From the NCBI GenBank assembly GCA_030613575.1, contig JAUWLP010000004.1, positions 1-36,245 on the forward strand: a stretch of DNA of 36,245 nucleotides, read 5' to 3'. A program made the translations under genes and the position numbers. The notes beneath the pieces were generated by a model. That model worked only from the letters and a program-made list of their open reading frames with translations. It did not search any database and was not told the DNA's origin. The stretch comes from Desulfobacteraceae bacterium. GTDB taxonomy: Bacteria > Desulfobacterota > Desulfobacteria > Desulfobacterales > UBA11574. Below, in pieces: positions 21,832-31,172 of the stretch; within the stretch, counting starts at the first letter, position 1; each line of letters begins with the position of its first letter.

Positions 21832-22203
21832 TTAATTACAACTGCAACTAAAAGAAGGGCAATCTTTTTTTATAGCTCTACATGTTTTACTTATGGGGTG
21901 GCTTTGGCTTGCAGGGCAGCAAACATTGCACCAATAATCATACAAAGAATCGTTGCAAGGGTCTTCCTGTGCAATCACCAGGCTCTGTCCCATCTCTTTC
22001 TGATCAACCCCAAAGGCATCTAGCGCCTCATAAACCGCATGGGGAGATGCCTGGCTGTTATAGGCAAGTGTCATTGCACCGGCAAGGTTGTTTTGATCAA
22101 GTGCTTTAGCAAAGCCGTCCTGCCAGTCATCGCCGGCAAACGCCAAAGACCCGAACAATGCCATAGAAACTACGATTAAAAAAGTCAAAATTCTTTTTTT
22201 CAT
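21832..22203 (-). CDS. secreted Cys-rich small protein (123 aa)
   Basis: Sec signal MKKRILTFLIVVSMALFGSLAFA; eight Cys confined to the last about 41 residues (PCNDSLYDYWCNVCCPASQ...TCRAIKKDCPSFSCSCN); strong RBS GAGGAGGGATTTAAC-ATG. Confidence 0.85.
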   Translation of the reverse strand: MKKRILTFLIVVSMALFGSLAFAGDDWQDGFAKALDQNNLAGAMTLAYNSQASPHAVYEALDAFGVDQKEMGQSLVIAQEDPCNDSLYDYWCNVCCPASQSHPISKTCRAIKKDCPSFSCSCN

Positions 22204-22763: not shown

Positions 22764-24623
22764 TTACTGTCCTCTGACTTCTGACTTCTGTCCTCCAACC
22801 TTCTTGCCCTCAAACCATCCCTCCTGAATCCTAAAAAGCCCTGCATACTCTCCGTCCAGCCTCATCAATGTATCATGGGATCCTTGTTCAACAATTCTGC
22901 CATCTTTTAGCAGCAAAATCCGGTCCGCCATTCTTACCGTGGACAGGCGATGGCTGATCAAAATGGCCGATTTCCCCTGTATAAGCCGGTGAAACTGGTT
23001 AAAAATATCATATTCCGTCTTTACATCAAGGGAACTTGTGGGTTCATCTAATATGATGATCTGGGCGTTTCTGAAAAAGGCTCTTGCAAGTGCAACTTTC
23101 TGCCACTGGCCGATACTGAGTTCCTCTCCTTTTTCAAACCACTTCCCGAGGATGGTGTCATAGCCATCCGGGAGACCGGTGATCAACTGATGGGCGTCTG
23201 CCTTGCGCGCGGCATGGGAAATTTTGTCCGAATCTTGCGTGCAATCGACATTTCCGAACCATATGTTTTCCCGGGCCGGAAGGAAATATTTGACATAATC
23301 CTGGAAAATAACGCTCAATTGGGATTGAAGCGATGTTTTATCGAACGCTTTAAGATCGGTGTTGTCAATCCTTATGCTTCCGGAAGTCGGATCATACAGC
23401 CTGCACAGCAGCTTAACCAGGGTTGTTTTTCCGGACCCGTTGTCTCCCACCAACGCAACAACCTCACCCGGGGAAATAGAAAAGGAGACCTCCTTTAGAA
23501 TATCCTCTCTTCCCGCGGGATATCTGAAAGAAACGTTATCAAACTCAATCCCCTCTTTTATGGGTATGGGGACAGAAACCGGTGTAGGGGACTGTTTGAC
23601 TGTGGGCGTAAGATCAAGAAACGCATAAAGATTGGTGAGGAAAAGGCTGTCGTCATAAAGGTCTGCCAGACCCCCTAATAGATCCTTCATATTTCCAAGC
23701 CCCCGTTGAAACGCACCAAAGAACATGACCATGTCTCCCAGAGTGATACTGCCCGTGATCGCCCTTTTTGCAATAAAGCCAAAGGTAGCGAACACTAATA
23801 GGGTGGCCAGGGACTGGGCGGCAAGATCCGCTACGGACCGCTTTTTGACCATGGACAGCTTCTCGCTTCTCAGGGTATCTCGCAGCCGGCTGAACCGTTG
23901 AATAAACAAGTCTGCCAGGCCGAACAGCCGGACCTCCTTGGCATGTGCATCTCCAGTGAGTATCCAATTGTAGTAACGGGATTTTCGCTCGGACTGTGTG
24001 TGCTGCTGCTGCCATTGGTACATCTTCCCCGAATATCTTATTCGTACGAACACCCCTGGAACGGCCGCTGCAATGAGTATTATGGGAATGCTCCAGTGAA
24101 ACACAAACAAAAGCCCCGCAATGGCGACAAGGGAAATACCGCTTTGTCCCACCTGTGTTAATCCATCGATTATTTGAGTGGGGCGGTAGGGTCCTTCTTC
24201 CTGGGCTCGGTGAAGTGTGTCTAAATACTCGGGGTTTTCGTAGTATTCCAGATCTACGGAAACCGACTTTTCGTGGAGAAGATTGTAAACATGGTCGGTG
24301 ACGGACAGAGATTGTGCTTCCTTGATCCAGCCCGCCAATTGCTGAAAAAAAACGTTTAAAAGAGCAATCGCACCCGCGATGCATATGAGCACAATAATGG
24401 AGCTGATTGCCGCTGATTTGTCAGGTTCTGTAATTGCCATGCTGACCGCATCCACGATCAGCTTCATCAAGTACAGGGCTAAAAGGGGTAACAGGCCCTG
24501 GGCAACAAGAACCCCAAGACTGCCGATGGTCCATCCTCTGCCGGCCTGCCAGACCAGGCGCAACGCCCGGTCGATGCGTAGGATTTGCGCTATTCTCTTG
24601 CGTGTTGAAACAGGCTGAGTCAT
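22764..24623 (-). CDS. ABC transporter, fused permease/ATPase, no C39 peptidase domain
   Basis: MTQPVSTRKRIAQILRIDRALRLVW...; Walker A LVGDNGSGKTTLVKLL; LSIGQWQKVALARAF; ILDEPTSSLD. ORF-track N-terminus is repeat DNA. Confidence 0.93.
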   Translation of the reverse strand: MTQPVSTRKRIAQILRIDRALRLVWQAGRGWTIGSLGVLVAQGLLPLLALYLMKLIVDAVSMAITEPDKSAAISSIIVLICIAGAIALLNVFFQQLAGWIKEAQSLSVTDHVYNLLHEKSVSVDLEYYENPEYLDTLHRAQEEGPYRPTQIIDGLTQVGQSGISLVAIAGLLFVFHWSIPIILIAAAVPGVFVRIRYSGKMYQWQQQHTQSERKSRYYNWILTGDAHAKEVRLFGLADLFIQRFSRLRDTLRSEKLSMVKKRSVADLAAQSLATLLVFATFGFIAKRAITGSITLGDMVMFFGAFQRGLGNMKDLLGGLADLYDDSLFLTNLYAFLDLTPTVKQSPTPVSVPIPIKEGIEFDNVSFRYPAGREDILKEVSFSISPGEVVALVGDNGSGKTTLVKLLCRLYDPTSGSIRIDNTDLKAFDKTSLQSQLSVIFQDYVKYFLPARENIWFGNVDCTQDSDKISHAARKADAHQLITGLPDGYDTILGKWFEKGEELSIGQWQKVALARAFFRNAQIIILDEPTSSLDVKTEYDIFNQFHRLIQGKSAILISHRLSTVRMADRILLLKDGRIVEQGSHDTLMRLDGEYAGLFRIQEGWFEGKKVGGQKSEVRGQ

Positions 24624-24630
24624 GCAAAGT

Positions 24631-24660
24631 AAAGAATCCTGGCTAAGAGAACCAGGCTTT
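24631..24660. repeat. short interspersed hairpin repeat AAAGAATCCTGGC..CCAGGCTTT (copy 1)
   Basis: aaagaatcctggctaagagaaccaggcttt versus copy at 35292-35321. Confidence 0.75.
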
Positions 24661-25026
24661 ATTTTATCCGCAGAGGGGATTTGCTTTGTTGGAAGTTCGT
24701 TGACATATTGAAATCCCAAAAAACAAATCCCAAAGAAACAAATAAATAACAATGACCGAATTTCAAAATCCCAAACAAAAAAAGCAACCGCTTTGCCTCC
24801 GGCCCGGAGGGAACCGGTTTGAAATTTGAAATTTGGAGTTTAAGATTTATTTGGAATTTGGTGCTTGGAATTTGTGATTTTAGACACAAAGCTCTAAGGC
24901 AGAACCATCTATCTCTGACCTAGCTCTCCGTGGCGTAGGCTCTCCGAGCCGGAGGCAAAGGAACAAGGTTTTAATGTAAAAACAAAAGTGTTTTCTAAAA
25001 ATAACTTAACCCGCATCCTTTAACTC

Positions 25027-25168
25027 GTGTCCATCCAGAAATGGTAGATTTTGGTTTTCGGCAAGGCCCGAGCAAGTTTTCAACCGCAGGCATAGCGCGC
25101 TATTTCGAGGATTGAAAACGAGCGAGAACGCCGCCGGAGGCCGAAAGATGCCGTTTATGGATGGACAC
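25027..25168. repeat. 142-bp inverted-repeat (MITE-like/long hairpin) element
   Basis: Termini gtgtccatccagaaatgg / ccgtttatggatggacac (16/18 complementary), internal complementary stretches ttttcaaccg / ...attgaaaacg. Confidence 0.8.
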
Positions 25169-25170
25169 TA

Positions 25171-25338
25171 CTAGCTTTTGCCGATATTGTGCAGGGGGTT
25201 GCCGTGTGCCGGTACACATTGTTGAAGACCAATAAAAGGTCTTCCCCGAGGTAACTTGCATGCCGTCAGGACATTTTCCTCCGGCTTTCCTCTGACAAAC
25301 ACGATCAACTCAGTTTTTTTCCATGGTTTTTTTGCCAT
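25171..25338 (-). CDS. candidate RiPP precursor peptide (55 aa), not in ORF track
   Basis: Hand translation MAKKPWKKTELIVFVRGKPEENVLTACKLPRGRPFIGLQQCVPAHGNPLHNIGKS*; AAAGGA RBS about 7 nt upstream of ATG; lies between radical SAM and ABC exporter genes, same strand. Confidence 0.75.
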   Translation of the reverse strand: MAKKPWKKTELIVFVRGKPEENVLTACKLPRGRPFIGLQQCVPAHGNPLHNIGKS

Positions 25339-25499
25339 GACACATCCTTTTTTCGATTATTCTGGCAACTTTGTACTCTACTAATATTTTCAACAAGAAA
25401 ACAAGGGGTAATCTTGTGGTGATATAGTGGGTATGCTTGCTCCCCCTTCTATCTCAATTTGATATTAATTCAGGGGGGTTAAGAAGATCAGAAAAGCAG

Positions 25500-25640
25500 A
25501 AGATCAGATCACCTTCCAACCTTCCGAGCTTCTCACTTTCTCACCTTCTGACCTCTGTCTTCCGTCCTCTGATCTCCGTCTTCTGTCCTCCGACCTTCCG
25601 ACCTTCTCACCTTCTGCTCTTCTAAACTTCTCGCCCTCAA
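25500..25640. repeat. polypyrimidine heptamer array
   Basis: ctcactttctcaccttctgacctctgtcttccgtcctctgatctccgtcttctgtcctccgaccttccgacc; encodes C-terminal tail of the radical SAM ORF. Confidence 0.9.
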
Positions 25641-26729
25641 CCGGGCAACCTCACAAAAATACTGAACCCGGCTGTCCAGCTTGCCTGTCTCCAGGTGTGC
25701 GTGTGCCGGGCACCAGTAGCAAAGGTTGACAATAGGACACTTGCGGCAGCTTTCCAAAAACTCACTGCTGTCAGATCGCATATTCCTTACCACGGGCACA
25801 AACTTGCGCAGGGCCTCGGCAAGACTCCCTTTATTTAGATCAAAAACACAGTCAGGATGCAGCAAAGAAGAGCACAAGCGAAACTTTCCGTCAGGCCCGA
25901 TGGTGCATTCGTCCAATCCGGTTCCGCAGTTGAAAAGAAAGGACTTCTCATTATCGGTAACAACCTTGTTGGCAGGATTGTCGCATTCTTTTTTCATCGC
26001 TGAAAACCGCAAATAGTCCTGTCGGTCTAAAACCGCTATTTCCTCCGGTGTCAGCCTTTCGCTCATGATCTCTTGATTTCGTTTACGGTCTCCGTCAAAC
26101 CTCAAATGCAGCAGAGGGTCAAACCGGAAAGGGGACTTGCTCTTTTTTTTGCAAAAAAGGGCAATCTGTTCAAGTTCTTCTATGTTTGATCGGATGGCCA
26201 TGGCTTTGAGGTCTACAGGGATCCCCGAGTCCAAAAGCAGGTTCAACCCGCGCATAAATGCTTTAAAACTTCCCGGCTTCCGGGTGACCTTTTCATAGGT
26301 CTTTTCTGTAACACCATAGACGGAAACTTCAATGTTTCTGGGCGGCCATTTCTTAAAAATATCGATGTGCGATTGTTTTAAAAGTGTTGCGTTTGTAAAT
26401 ACCGAAACCAGGAGCCCTTTTTTCTTCAAATAAATATAGATCTCTTCAAAATCGTTCCTCAAAAGGGGCTCGCCTCCGGTAATCAGGCACCACAGAGTCT
26501 CCAGCGAACAGGCCTGATCCGCGATATCTTTTATCTTTTCAAATGAAAGCTCCTTTTTTTTTGCATCCTGGTTGTTAGCAGGAACATTGATATAACAATG
26601 GCGGCAGTTATTGTTGCAGCGCGCGGTCACTTCCAGGTTCATGGCAAGCAGCCGGCCTTTTCTTCCCGCCAGTTTTTGCCATATCGGCGCCTCCGGCAGA
26701 GGTGTTCTTCTAATATACGATTTATGCAT
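25533..26729 (-). CDS. radical SAM / SPASM-domain peptide-modifying enzyme
   Basis: LEVTARCNNNCRHCYINVPA (CX3CX2C), TGGEPLLR; C-terminal Cys-rich CTIGPDGKFRLCSSLLHPDC...CRKCPIVNLCYWCPAHAHLETGKLDSRVQYFC. Confidence 0.93.
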   Translation of the reverse strand: MHKSYIRRTPLPEAPIWQKLAGRKGRLLAMNLEVTARCNNNCRHCYINVPANNQDAKKKELSFEKIKDIADQACSLETLWCLITGGEPLLRNDFEEIYIYLKKKGLLVSVFTNATLLKQSHIDIFKKWPPRNIEVSVYGVTEKTYEKVTRKPGSFKAFMRGLNLLLDSGIPVDLKAMAIRSNIEELEQIALFCKKKSKSPFRFDPLLHLRFDGDRKRNQEIMSERLTPEEIAVLDRQDYLRFSAMKKECDNPANKVVTDNEKSFLFNCGTGLDECTIGPDGKFRLCSSLLHPDCVFDLNKGSLAEALRKFVPVVRNMRSDSSEFLESCRKCPIVNLCYWCPAHAHLETGKLDSRVQYFCEVARLRARSLEEQKVRRSEGRRTEDGDQRTEDRGQKVRK

Positions 26730-26814
26730 ATGATTTCAGGGTTCTGGGTTCAGAAAATAATGGTTAATAATCAATGGTTAACAATTAATAATTAACAATT
26801 GATTATTAGATCGG

Positions 26815-27290
26815 GGTTCGGGGTTTACGGAAGACCGATGGAGGAAGGAGGACCGCTTCGCTAAGATGATGGACGACAGAACGTATCGGCCTTCTTCTCC
26901 ATCGCGTATAGCATCGCAAATATGTGTTCGTAACTCTCATCAAGTCTATGGAAAGTCTCTTCATCGATATATTTACAATGCAAGGAAAATTCCAACCATG
27001 TTTGGGTTTCGGCTGCTTCCTGTCCGGAATCGGTCAACTTGTTCAGAAAGACTGCCTTGTACCGACGTTTTCGCCATCCTTCTGATAAGTTCGAACAAAC
27101 TGAGCGCGATGCTCGTCTTATCTGATCAGTCAAGGAATATGTTTCCTCTTTGGGGAATTTCTTGGTAAGTTCAAAAATTTCCATGGCACTATTGAAGGCT
27201 TTGCGATAAACTTTCAGATCTCTCACAGTTCTGATCTTGTTTGTCCTATTTTCGTCCATCTTCCCTCATCCTTCTTCCTTCGTCATCCGA
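26815..27290 (-). repeat. four-helix-bundle gene module, copy A (ORF plus flanking purine/pyrimidine tracts)
   Basis: Matches 30684-31172 through ORF and immediate flanks. Confidence 0.85.
26861..27259 (-). CDS. four-helix-bundle protein (23S rRNA IVS / bAvd-like family), copy A
   Basis: VRDLKVYRKAFNSAMEIFELTKKFPKEETYSLTDQIRRASRSVCSNLSEGWRKRRYKAVFLNKLTDSGQEAAETQTWLEF. Confidence 0.93.
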   Translation of the reverse strand: MDENRTNKIRTVRDLKVYRKAFNSAMEIFELTKKFPKEETYSLTDQIRRASRSVCSNLSEGWRKRRYKAVFLNKLTDSGQEAAETQTWLEFSLHCKYIDEETFHRLDESYEHIFAMLYAMEKKADTFCRPSS

Positions 27291-27854
27291 TCTTCTCACC
27301 TTTTCATCTTCTAACCTTCTTATCTTCTCTATATCGTGCGCCCTCAATCCCTCAATCCGTTTAATCAATCCCAAAACTTTGGAAACTATCCTCATCACAA
27401 AAGGAACCTGTGATAAAAGCGCAATGGCTCTTCGCTCAGGTCCCAAACCGAATCGAACAGGCTTGCCGTTTCTTTCAACCCGTGTGACATGGCCGCATAT
27501 ATGGTTCAGGCCAAAGGACCCGGTATCTTTTTTTTCAGCATTGTCTCCCTTGATCCGATATCTTCCGTTTTTCATGCCCACGACCCTGTGAACCACCAGC
27601 TTTTCGGTACCAGGGTCGATTATTCCTACAACATCACCTTTCCGTGGAAAGCGGATTGAGGGAGGGGACAGGGTAAGTATGTCACCATCTCTGATAAAAG
27701 GGGACATACTCCGGCCACTGGCCTTGAATTTAAAAGACTTGCCCCTCTCGATGACCGCCTTTAGAAGCTGTACAACAGCGGTGCCTGAAAGCGAAAGTTC
27801 ATTGCCGGTCGAGGCCTTTGCAAAAGATACGGGTTCATTACGACGGGATCTCAA
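27246..27854 (-). CDS. S26-family (SipW-like) signal peptidase
   Basis: KFKASGRSMSPFIRDGDILTLSP, PRKGDVVGI, EKLVVHRVVG, RIKGDNAEKKD; start overlaps PqqD-like stop. Confidence 0.88.
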   Translation of the reverse strand: MRSRRNEPVSFAKASTGNELSLSGTAVVQLLKAVIERGKSFKFKASGRSMSPFIRDGDILTLSPPSIRFPRKGDVVGIIDPGTEKLVVHRVVGMKNGRYRIKGDNAEKKDTGSFGLNHICGHVTRVERNGKPVRFGLGPERRAIALLSQVPFVMRIVSKVLGLIKRIEGLRAHDIEKIRRLEDEKVRRSDDEGRRMREDGRK

Positions 27855-28134
27855 CGAGAAACTTCCTTTTTAACAACTCCTTCATCAGACCGAAGACATC
27901 CGCTTCGATCTCTTGAAACGATGCTTCGTACTCTTCAGAAAGTTGAGTAATCAGATCCCTGAGAGACGTTTTACCGTCCAAACGATCCCAGACGCCCCTT
28001 CCCGTTTCATTGAGGGAGTAAAGCTCATCTTCCATATCCCCCACATTGGAAGTCACGGGAACTATGATAAGTTGCCCTTCTATCTCATGGGCAACCACAT
28101 CTTCTGATATGGCATACACAGAATCAATGTTCAT
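27838..28134 (-). CDS. PqqD-like RRE (RiPP recognition element) protein
   Basis: MNIDSVYAISEDVVAHEIEGQLIIVPVTSNVGDMEDELYSLNETGRGVWDRLDGKTSLRDLITQLSEEYEASFQEIEADVFGLMKELLKRKFL. Confidence 0.9.
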   Translation of the reverse strand: MNIDSVYAISEDVVAHEIEGQLIIVPVTSNVGDMEDELYSLNETGRGVWDRLDGKTSLRDLITQLSEEYEASFQEIEADVFGLMKELLKRKFLVEIPS

Positions 28135-28152
28135 TGTATAGTAATTTCCTTT

Positions 28153-28249
28153 TTGGACACAGATGAACACAGATTATTAAGATTTTTAAATTTAAAAAAA
28201 TACTATTATCTGTGTATATCTGCGAAAATCCGCGTCCCATTCAGCTTAA
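28153..28249. repeat. repeat family R3, copy 2 (overlaps 3' end of the HPr-kinase-like ORF)
   Basis: ttggacacagatgaacacagattattaagatttttaaatttaaaaaaatactattatctgtgtatatctgcgaaaatccgcgtcc. Confidence 0.9.
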
Positions 28250-29129
28250 ATTCATCTTCCAAAAGGTTCACCACTTTGCCGCTTTTATCAAAACACAACT
28301 CATAGCACGGCACTTCCCGCACGATCTCTGAGATCAAAGCCAATGTCTGGTTCCACCACTCTGGTGTTACAAACGACTTGACAAGACAGGCAAGCAGTTT
28401 TTTCAGGATCATTGTTTTATCTTCAAGGCGCTTCACACGGTTCTCTTTCGCATGTTTTAAAAAAAATATCGCCTTTAAATCCGCGGAATCAGAAGACACA
28501 TCTTCCACATCCCCGTGGCTCCATGTGCCGTAAATCTTGAAACCGCCCGCTTGTTTTCTGATGATGTTCCGGTCGTCGCACAGGATTGTTGCCCGGTTTT
28601 TCATCATTAACGACATGGTCGACTTTCCGGCATCAGAGTGTCCGGCGAAAAGCAGGCCGTTTCCATCCATAATCATGCCGGAGGAGTGGAGTATGCACCC
28701 TTTCCTGTCCGCCAGAAGCCGTGCCAGCAGAATCTGATCTGTGGGGAAGAGGGTAAGAGAACTGACATTTCCTGCGTTGTATGCCATACGGTTTGTTTCA
28801 TCGTTGTAAATCACACCTTTTGTGTGATCCAGGTTGAATATGGCGGCCCGTTTCAAGCTGTCTGTATTCTCAATGGATGAGGTCCAAACATAGGTAAAAT
28901 GTTTTTTACCCTCATAAATCATCCATGGCGATTTTCCATAGACTTTTTTACCGGGATCACTTTTGCCGATATCCAGCAGGTGAAAATGATGATGAATGTA
29001 AACCGTATCCTCACCGGGCGCTTTGACCTCAAATTGCTTAATCTTGGGGTGAAACGTTTTTTCCAAAATGGGAAGATCTGATGACACCGCAAGAGTGATG
29101 CCGGCGGTTTTGTAGTATCGTTCGTACAT
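28206..29129 (-). CDS. HPr-kinase-like (HprK-related) protein
   Basis: Walker A GLLFAGHSDAGKSTMSLMM, CDDRNIIRK; family as seen in RiPP/EPS loci. Confidence 0.85.
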   Translation of the reverse strand: MYERYYKTAGITLAVSSDLPILEKTFHPKIKQFEVKAPGEDTVYIHHHFHLLDIGKSDPGKKVYGKSPWMIYEGKKHFTYVWTSSIENTDSLKRAAIFNLDHTKGVIYNDETNRMAYNAGNVSSLTLFPTDQILLARLLADRKGCILHSSGMIMDGNGLLFAGHSDAGKSTMSLMMKNRATILCDDRNIIRKQAGGFKIYGTWSHGDVEDVSSDSADLKAIFFLKHAKENRVKRLEDKTMILKKLLACLVKSFVTPEWWNQTLALISEIVREVPCYELCFDKSGKVVNLLEDEFKLNGTRIFADIHR

Positions 29130-29145
29130 GAATTTATATTATCTC

Positions 29146-29425
29146 ACCACAGAGACGCAGAGAACACAGAGAGACATGAATTTTCTGTTTGCTGCTGAGA
29201 GGGCGGCAAACAGAAATCCTCAGAAGCTTCGCTTCATGTGATGACATTGTAAATAGTGTAAATTTGAAGCTGTCTCTCAAAGCTTAGTATCCCTGTTAAT
29301 CTGATTTAGAAAAAATGGCCTTAAAGGCATGGGTTTATTTCTTTTCGTCCTCTCAGCGAAAAGAAATAAGAAAAACGCCTCTGTGCCCTCCGTGCCTCTA
29401 ATGAGCGCAGCGAATGGGCGGTGAT
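29146..29425. repeat. repeat family R4 element A: outer inverted arms plus two hairpins with TGAGAGG heptaloop
   Basis: Hairpin 29182-29216 (tttctgtttgctgc-tgagagg-gcggcaaacagaaa) and 29335-29369 (ttatttcttttcgt-cctctca-gcgaaaagaaataa); arms accacagagacgcagagaacacagag / cctctgtgccctccgtgcctc. Confidence 0.85.
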
Positions 29426-30669
29426 TAATCTTTCAATCCCTTAATTCTATTGTTACGCCTACCTATCATCAACCATGAAAAAAACGCCATACACAAGCGG
29501 GCCGGGCGCAGGATACTGTGGACAAAAGAAAGTTTTGCCGGTACCGGAAAATGCGCCCACTCCTGGGCAGTGGCGCCAAGGAGCAAGTGTTTACCGTAGC
29601 GTATTTTTTCTGACCATCTGTCTCTTACCTTGAAATGGAAACCGGAAAATTTAGGTTTCTCCCTAAATACGGGTGATTCAATGTTTTCTTTAAAAAGATT
29701 ATTGTAAACCGTTAAGGCCAGCTCGGGAAGTGCGGGGTCCTTTTCCACGAGGTTCATCATATCTTGGGAAAGCTTAACATCAAAAAGATCGCATACTAAA
29801 AAAAGGCCTAAATGAAGAATCCTTTCACAGCGCATTCTTTCCGCTAAATGCCTTACCCGCATCCAGTCCAATCCGTCATTTGATTGAATCAGGCCGGCAA
29901 TGCTGCTCAAGGATTCCACGTCTTGCCAGCAATCCCTGGTCCCATTGAGACACAGGTAGACTAACAGATCCTCCCTGCAGGGATGGAGCACTTTTTTACC
30001 TGCGATGGTTGCATGGACGAGATTGTTTTCAATGCTGTTTAAAAGCAGGGGATAAAACGTATAGCTTCCCGACATTTCCCAGTGGAGATCCACGGTCAGT
30101 CCGCTTTTGCTGCTGATCAATTCAATACTGCTCTTTTTCGCCGCATAAGCTAAAAGCTGCTTTTTATTTAAATTTATCTCTAATTGGAATCCATAATCCT
30201 CAAAAATCTTTATTGTCTTGAGAGCATCCTGTTTGTTTACCAATATGTCCAGATCGCCGAACTGTCGAAGGGCAAAGTCTCCGTAAACCATTTGTGCCAG
30301 AACCGGTCCTTTAAACGGTACCGCAGGAATATTATTATCTTCCAGAAGCTTCAAAATGGATACAAGCTTAACGGTAATAAGAAGGCTGCGCATTGAGTTG
30401 GTATTGTACTCGTTTTCAAGCTTTTTCAGGACATCATCTGGGACAGACTCCGGACATGCTTTTTTTAAGCTTTGGTATAAGAGGAGATGGACTTTATGTA
30501 AATCGGCTGTTTCTATAAGATATTCCCAATCAACAGTCTCATTTACAAGAGACTTGATCTGTTCGATCGTTGCAGTATCCAAACTGCCCCGCGCGCCTAA
30601 AAGAAGCAGTTTAATTTCTTTGCGGTATTTTGGCGGCACGAATTGATAAAATAGATGGTAACAGTTCAT
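29425..30669 (-). CDS. nucleotidyltransferase family protein (PF14907-like)
   Basis: PAVPFKGPVLAQMVYGDFALRQFGDLDILVNKQDALKTIKIFEDYGF. Confidence 0.9.
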   Translation of the reverse strand: MNCYHLFYQFVPPKYRKEIKLLLLGARGSLDTATIEQIKSLVNETVDWEYLIETADLHKVHLLLYQSLKKACPESVPDDVLKKLENEYNTNSMRSLLITVKLVSILKLLEDNNIPAVPFKGPVLAQMVYGDFALRQFGDLDILVNKQDALKTIKIFEDYGFQLEINLNKKQLLAYAAKKSSIELISSKSGLTVDLHWEMSGSYTFYPLLLNSIENNLVHATIAGKKVLHPCREDLLVYLCLNGTRDCWQDVESLSSIAGLIQSNDGLDWMRVRHLAERMRCERILHLGLFLVCDLFDVKLSQDMMNLVEKDPALPELALTVYNNLFKENIESPVFREKPKFSGFHFKVRDRWSEKIRYGKHLLLGATAQEWAHFPVPAKLSFVHSILRPARLCMAFFSWLMIGRRNNRIKGLKD

Positions 30670-30683
30670 GGGTTTATAGGTGC

Positions 30684-31172
30684 AGGGGTTCTGGGTTTGC
30701 CGAAGACCGATGGAAGAAGGAGGACCGCTTCGCTAAGATGATGGACGACAGAATGTATCGGCCTTCTTTTCCATAGCGTTTAGCATCGCAAATATGTGCT
30801 CGTAACTGTCATCAAGCCTTTGGAAAGTCTCTTCATCGATATATTTACAATGAAAGGAAAATTCCAACCATGTTTGGGTCTCGGCCGCTTCCTGCCCGGA
30901 ATCGGTTAACTTGTTCAGAAAGACTGCCTTGTACCGACGTTTTCGCCATCCCTCTGATAAATTTGAACAAACTGAACGCGATGCTCGCCTTATCTGATCC
31001 GTCAAGGAATATGTTTCCTCTTTGGGGAATTTCTTGGTAAGTTCAAAAATTTCCATGGCGCTATCGAAGGCTTTGCGATAAACTTTCAGATCTCTCACAG
31101 TTCTGATCTTGTTTGTCCTCTTTTCGTCCATCTTCCCTCATCCATCTTCCCTTATCCATCTTCCTTCGTCAT
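30684..31172 (-). repeat. four-helix-bundle gene module, copy B
   Basis: About 22 nt differences from copy A over the 399-nt ORF (hand count). Confidence 0.85.
30733..31131 (-). CDS. four-helix-bundle protein (23S rRNA IVS / bAvd-like family), copy B
   Basis: 6 aa differences from copy A over 132 aa. Confidence 0.93.
   Translation of the reverse strand: MDEKRTNKIRTVRDLKVYRKAFDSAMEIFELTKKFPKEETYSLTDQIRRASRSVCSNLSEGWRKRRYKAVFLNKLTDSGQEAAETQTWLEFSFHCKYIDEETFQRLDDSYEHIFAMLNAMEKKADTFCRPSS

Follow-up and report, generated by a model that had tools for sequence, protein, structure and literature searches.

A Likely RiPP Precursor Gene in a Cassette of Radical SAM, HprK-like Kinase, and Signal Peptidase Genes

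Organization of the Locus

The window, by which we mean the whole stretch of DNA analyzed (36,245 nucleotides), is a complete contig from a MAG (2.4 Mb, 82% complete). It carries a cassette of seven genes (22764-30669) whose surroundings are a Wzy-type exopolysaccharide locus, with Wzc, CpsB, Wzy, a sugar transferase, and export and outer-membrane proteins. The genes of the cassette are listed first, followed by the features of the short peptide.

22764 to 24752, minus strand: MsbA-like ABC exporter; the true start is probably within the TTG-initiated frame
25338 to 25171, minus strand: gene of 55 codons for the proposed precursor peptide, ending in a TAG stop
25533 to 26729, minus strand: radical SAM/SPASM protein (Pfam Radical_SAM, 4e-24), placed in paralog group C by the tree
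27246 to 27854, minus strand: SpI, an archaeal/SipW-type signal peptidase I homologue and putative leader peptidase
27838 to 28170, minus strand: discrete PqqD-type RiPP recognition element (RRE; Pfam PqqD, 5e-15)
28206 to 29129, minus strand: HprK-like kinase with the P-loop GHSDAGKST; orthologues are present in the cassettes
29425 to 30669, minus strand: NTP_transf_5 nucleotidyltransferase of the PsmN/LppN type (Pfam, 6e-57)
25321 to 25323, minus strand: W6 of the peptide, with L11 part of the proposed RRE-binding motif
T9 of the peptide: stands where relatives usually have Pro
PEENVLTACK of the peptide: conserved segment
C27 of the peptide: conserved
25216 to 25218, minus strand: C41, the sole core Cys of the peptide
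25174 to 25176, minus strand: S55, the C-terminal Ser of the peptide

The peptide gene lies between the radical SAM (rSAM) gene and the ABC gene, all three on the same strand, with a gap of 194 nt between the rSAM stop and its own start. Its start context (AAAAAAGGATGTGTC-ATG) is made up of AAGGA, six bases, and the ATG. A sequence-only reading had proposed an ORF of fewer than 60 residues with a good ribosome-binding site, downstream of the rSAM/SPASM gene and on its strand; this description and the translation given with it both held, as did the statement that no Asp or Glu occurs after residue 21.

The CxxxCxxC motif of the window rSAM (C38, C42, C45) and its seven SPASM cysteines (C268, C286, C328, C331, C337, C340, C359) are invariant in the alignment, and a model of the protein (pLDDT 87) has CteB, SuiB, PqqE, and SkfB as its nearest folds. 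SpI has its best match in TIGR02228 (8e-10, under the cut-off of that model); residues S49, H89, D104, and D110 are invariant, and its match among PDB profiles is SEC11. Because the ABC exporter was found to have no C39 peptidase domain, SpI is likely to be the leader peptidase. The top PDB match of the RRE is the paeninodin-like lasso RRE 9x90_B, and profile matches to solved RREs of lasso and linear polyphosphorylated peptide (LPP) systems were obtained with TbiB1 (7e-8), 9x90 (8e-6), and 9x8z (1e-4). The kinase is matched only weakly (ScmC, 8e-9; HprK_rel_B, 2e-7; Pfam Hpr_kinase_C, 0.016, below cut-off).

Several other elements were observed in and beside the cassette. A MITE-like repeat of 142 bp (25027-25168) with inverted ends, GTGTCCATCC...GGATGGACAC, stops two bases short of the peptide stop codon, and three more full copies with 96-97% identity are present in the same genome. 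Shortening of the peptide by this adjoining repeat was ruled out, the final Ser aligning with that of the family. Two near-identical genes for 132-aa "four-helix bundle/IVP" proteins (26861-27259 and 30733-31131; 127/133 positions) flank the SpI, PqqD, HprK, and NTP_transf_5 genes, and similar genes occur within the cassettes of two other loci (L064, L078). Downstream of the ABC gene, 21832-22203 encodes a protein of 123 aa that starts with a signal peptide and is rich in Cys toward its C terminus (CNVCCPAS...SFSCSCN), for which no Pfam or NCBIfam match was found.

A Peptide Family with a Conserved Leader and a Variable Core

Among the 1,084 ORFs of the window, the top match of a family profile built from 43 relatives, with the window peptide left out, is the 55-aa ORF at an E-value of 1e-14, the runner-up being at 0.66. 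Its recovery by a profile to which it did not contribute indicates that the ORF is more than a chance frame. Values of dN/dS (NG86) were ∼0.11 for L023 versus L096 and for L086 versus L098 and 0.13 for L087 versus L098; with dS above 1 these estimates are rough, and with that reservation the relatives are likely to be under purifying selection. We therefore have high confidence that this is a genuine precursor gene and not a chance ORF, which supports the precursor reading made earlier, although translation and modification are untested.

A profile was required to find the relatives, a single-sequence scan of genome contigs and a tblastn search of plasmids having yielded nothing useful, and neither the peptide nor its relatives reached the cut-off of any Pfam or NCBIfam model. 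Four clear relatives came from same-order genomes. With a profile, 29 of the 390 genomes searched in the order gave matches (a few of the lowest-scoring are doubtful), and across the phylum the family was matched in 15 of 395. Named public genomes contributed 23 loci, from Desulfobacteraceae, Myxococcota, Acidobacteria, Chloroflexi, and Chlorobiaceae and also from Lentisphaerae, Omnitrophota, Aminicenantes, Actinomycetota, and one Methanothrix MAG; single taxon assignments could be wrong through MAG binning errors. The distribution is patchy, with several precursors per genome, and the six same-genus genomes searched yielded no relative.

In all, 76 distinct cores were recovered, from Desulfobacterota, Myxococcota, Acidobacteriota, Chlorobiota, Chloroflexota, and others. 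The leader common to the family is [W/Y]xKPxLIVLxRGxPEExVLxxCK, and the sequence that follows is hypervariable and 14-40 aa long. Ser is the last residue of 70 of the 76 cores (Thr in four, Tyr in two), compared with only 9% of the remaining core positions. The one-Cys cores of the window (GNPLHNIGKS) and of the L083-L099 group (for L091, GAPLQNIGS) are similar at their ends. With a small ORF of conserved leader and variable core beside modifying enzymes and an RRE, the family satisfies the general criterion for a RiPP at the level of gene content, translation and modification being inferred.

The pairing of a PqqD protein with a SPASM rSAM is also the logic of PQQ and mycofactocin, and the peptide might on that basis serve, in the manner of PqqA or MftA, as the scaffold from which a small cofactor or redox carrier is built, and not yield a secreted product. 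We give this very little weight given the hypervariable cores, their number per genome, the exporter and leader protease alongside, and the patchy distribution, down to the absence from the same-genus genomes searched.

Some precursor genes were observed far from any cassette (L069, L071, L135, L136, L143, L147), and in three genomes with such dispersed precursors (G690, G709, G724) the cassette is on another contig, which suggests action in trans. A reading of L056, L069-L071, L074, and L076 as rSAM-free cassettes was dropped because the flanking genes tested are unrelated and the three genomes hold a cassette elsewhere.

Conservation of the Cassette

Complete loci contain an HprK-like kinase, a PqqD-type RRE, SpI, and a radical SAM/SPASM gene, usually with NTP_transf_5 and an MsbA-like exporter, and the HprK-PqqD-SpI-rSAM-peptide cassette was kept across phyla in two independent harvests. 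Most loci on long enough contigs have the homologous small ORF in such an rSAM/PqqD/HprK/SpI cassette, a minority being dispersed. The sequence-only reading was to be refuted if no homologous small ORFs existed near rSAM/PqqD loci, and this is not the case, as homologues do exist there. It had missed the HprK, SpI, and NTP-transferase module and its near-identity to the core gene set of LPP clusters, the C-terminal Ser, the agreement between Cys and rSAM counts described below, and the change from Pro to Thr in the WxxP motif of the window peptide.

In many loci the rSAM gene has SpI on one side and the precursor on the other, and in 15 it is fused to HprK, the kinase standing behind the radical SAM domain. 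The rSAM domains form three groups in the tree, A (HprK-fused), B, and C, with support of 100/99-100 each, and the window protein belongs to C. A protein of ∼560 aa with a weak radical SAM match was also seen beside three-rSAM cassettes (L059:3-1640, L062:3469-5166, L066:8134-9828, L073:3487-5184); the L073 copy has no NCBIfam match at 1e-6.

At L076:2-382 (plus strand) a single open frame holds the PqqD C terminus and the precursor, with a Lys/Glu-rich linker between them. This may be a natural fusion of RRE and precursor that would support the pairing of RRE and leader, although an internal start is not excluded. Leaders of the form [Y/W]xxPx[L/V] are bound by lasso and LPP RREs (PMC13381572). 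The earlier proposal that the segment ELIVFV is docked by the PqqD-like RRE is thus supported, on sequence alone, by the conserved [W/Y]xxPxL motif and the in-frame fusion.

Core Cysteines Follow the Number of Radical SAM Genes in Most Main-Clade Loci

The number of core cysteines equals the number of rSAM genes in 22 of the 24 complete main-clade discovery loci and in all eight main-clade loci fetched later in the phylum-wide search. The rule was first noticed on the early loci, and the later ones were fetched only afterward; label permutation on this later set gave 375/100,000, a test that is inflated by the relatedness of the loci. The window fits, having a single rSAM (group C) and C41 as its only core Cys, as do the other Desulfobacterota one-rSAM cassettes with a single core Cys (L083, L085-L088, L091, L099). 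L146, with one rSAM and one Cys, is nested in the tree inside the three-rSAM clade and appears to reflect an independent joint loss. The rule is broken by L024 (one rSAM, three Cys) and by two of the three L065 peptides. A second, type-B clade (L092-L095, L138, L139, L141, L142), whose leader reads ...KPxIxxVxLxxEEAVL..., was set apart from the main-clade counts; there a single rSAM invariably goes with two Cys.

We infer from sequence alone that in most loci there is probably one rSAM enzyme per Cys, with one to three rSAMs modifying the peptide, the chemistry not having been shown. An earlier suspicion that the window peptide is degraded for want of a second Cys was dropped; because the Cys number tracks the rSAM number, a single Cys suits its single enzyme.

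A broader version of this idea, that the family is real but its copy in the window is decaying or has lost its function, draws on the Thr in place of Pro in the WxxP motif, the presence of only one of three rSAM paralogs, the repeat that ends two bases from the stop, and the insertion of two "four-helix" genes within or next to the cassette. On the other side, every cassette ORF is intact with its active-site residues conserved, the C-terminal Ser is intact, and one core Cys with one rSAM is the arrangement found in L083, L085-L088, L091, and L099. We consider decay unlikely.

Proposed Pathway

Family, cassette, motifs, active-site residues, and the match of Cys and rSAM counts are all directly evident in the sequences. 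Our reading of them, to which we give a probability of ∼0.68, is that the seven-gene cassette makes a RiPP whose precursor is encoded by the 55-aa ORF; the catalytic steps, the biological role, and the border between leader and core are inferences. The discrete PqqD-type RRE would bind the leader through the strand W-x-x-(P/T)-x-L-I-V, and the SPASM rSAM of paralog group C would modify C41, most likely by a thioether to a nearby residue. In homologous cassettes with two or three rSAM paralogs, the core has two or three Cys. The HprK-like kinase is predicted to (poly)phosphorylate Ser55 at the C terminus and the NTP transferase to decorate the Ser55 phosphate. SpI, guided by the RRE, would cut off the leader near the PEE-x-VL motif, and the MsbA-like ABC transporter would carry the product out of the cell. 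The site or target of its action may be the exopolysaccharide whose gene locus holds the cassette.

Precedent for several of these steps exists: LppS (SpI) cleaves its leader with the help of the RRE and LppK phosphorylates Ser (PMC13381572), and in lasso precursors the C-terminal Ser is the residue that PadeK phosphorylates and to which PsmN adds a hexose (PMC9266682). A cleavage site near PEE/x is no more than a guess by analogy, taken from the spacing between W6 and the LPP cleavage site, and the segment ENVLTACK, after which the core had been supposed to begin, is not an established leader/core border.

A number of points stand against this main reading. There is no experiment and there are no expression data, and the chemistry cannot be read from the rSAM fold. 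Residue 9 of the window leader is Thr, against Pro in nearly all relatives, and the P-13A substitution weakened RRE binding in LPP. Phosphorylation in LPP is on core Ser3 and not at the C terminus, and two family cores end in Tyr. Not all precursors have a cassette nearby (L069, L071, L135, and L136 are far from any).

It also remains possible that the rSAM makes another modification (a C-C or C-O crosslink, or epimerization) and that the core Cys take part in disulfides or serve as metal ligands, SuiB (a Lys-Trp crosslink) and PqqE being as close in fold as CteB; the match of rSAM and Cys numbers is, however, simplest if Cys is the substrate. Returning to Cys as substrate, a bolder version of the main reading, which we hold only tentatively and would not bet on, is that three orthologous rSAM paralogs (A, kinase-fused; B; C) each act on one core Cys and that, once crosslinked, the peptide receives (poly)phosphate and sugar at its C-terminal Ser, by which it is possibly joined to the exopolysaccharide of the surrounding locus. 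If this were true, the enzyme set could be read from the peptide, and the family would be a modular RiPP class.

Comparison with Known Systems

The sactipeptide and ranthipeptide enzymes CteB and SkfB are among the nearest solved folds, and in the window too a SPASM rSAM is predicted to act on a Cys-bearing peptide, a Cys thioether being suggested only by the fold similarity to CteB. A Desulfobacca rSAM, Desac_0107, has been given as putative sactipeptide (PMC4289311). The window rSAM differs in having no N-terminal RRE and in the addition of a kinase, an NTP transferase, and SpI, and it reached no NCBIfam cut-off.

SynChlorMet systems (TIGR04248-TIGR04251) are similar in combining two SPASM rSAMs, PqqD, and an HprK-like protein. 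In four genuine SCM loci, PqqD and two rSAMs were present in 4/4, SpI and HprK in 3/4, and NTP_transf_5 and ABC in 2/4 each. Membership was ruled out on NCBIfam cut-offs (rSAM 82 versus 400 bits for ScmE and ScmF, PqqD 25 versus 100 for ScmD, HprK 35 versus 125 for ScmC), and the present precursor family has no match in the SCM loci. Two of these loci, which also have SpI, HprK, and NTP_transf_5 genes, were seen to contain candidate SynChlorMet precursors with YxxPxL leaders (L186:12794-12967, plus strand, and L187:5774-6046, minus strand; MTYEPPELIDLSG... and MEYMEPKLVDLDEG...), a hint on where such precursors could be sought.

Paeninodin and pseudomycoidin lasso systems share the WxxPxL leader bound by an RRE, an HprK acting on the C-terminal Ser, NTP_transf_5, and an ABC exporter, the roles of RRE and kinase being predicted in the present case. 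The Asp or Glu required at core position 7-9 of a lasso peptide is missing from the window peptide, and no macrolactam synthetase (Asn synthase-like) or B2 protease was found among the window genes scanned, an rSAM being present instead.

The closest likeness is to LPP (Popov et al. 2026, PMC13381572), in SpI, discrete RRE, HprK, NTP transferase, and MsbA-like exporter, so that the LPP core-gene criterion is met, and in the [Y/W]xxPx[L/V] leader, variable core, and location in capsular polysaccharide loci. The cluster might then be of LPP or lasso type, the nearby rSAM gene not acting on the peptide, and the NTP_transf_5 and HprK genes, which are also lasso tailoring genes, agree with this. 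We think it unlikely: in many loci the rSAM gene stands between SpI and precursor, in 15 it is HprK-fused, its copy number follows the core Cys number, the leader is without the LPP HQxIxFET motif, and no lasso enzymes were found among the window genes scanned. Nor is the description of LPP as linear, with phosphorylation primary and no other maturase, satisfied by complete cassettes with one to three rSAM/SPASM genes; radical SAM is absent from LPP clusters as described, the term appearing nowhere in that text. The LPP leader YxxPxVLxHQxIxFETxxS is likewise not met, the LPP phospho-Ser is at core position 3 and not at the C terminus of a Cys-bearing core, and LPP is said to be restricted to Bacillota, whereas the present family occurs in many other phyla. 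Because the leader motif differs and a new class of maturase is present, we do not file the family as LPP.

No description of RiPPs combining rSAM and HprK was found in the open-access literature searched, subscription papers being outside its scope, and this is likely to be a widespread and apparently undescribed natural-product family. By analogy, the cassette would work like LPP with radical SAM chemistry added, placing radical SAM peptide chemistry and phosphopeptide (LPP/paeninodin) chemistry on one assembly line. It would also widen the range of an SpI-dependent module, described as confined to Bacillota, by many phyla. One rSAM paralog per Cys would offer a directly testable rule for radical SAM regioselectivity.
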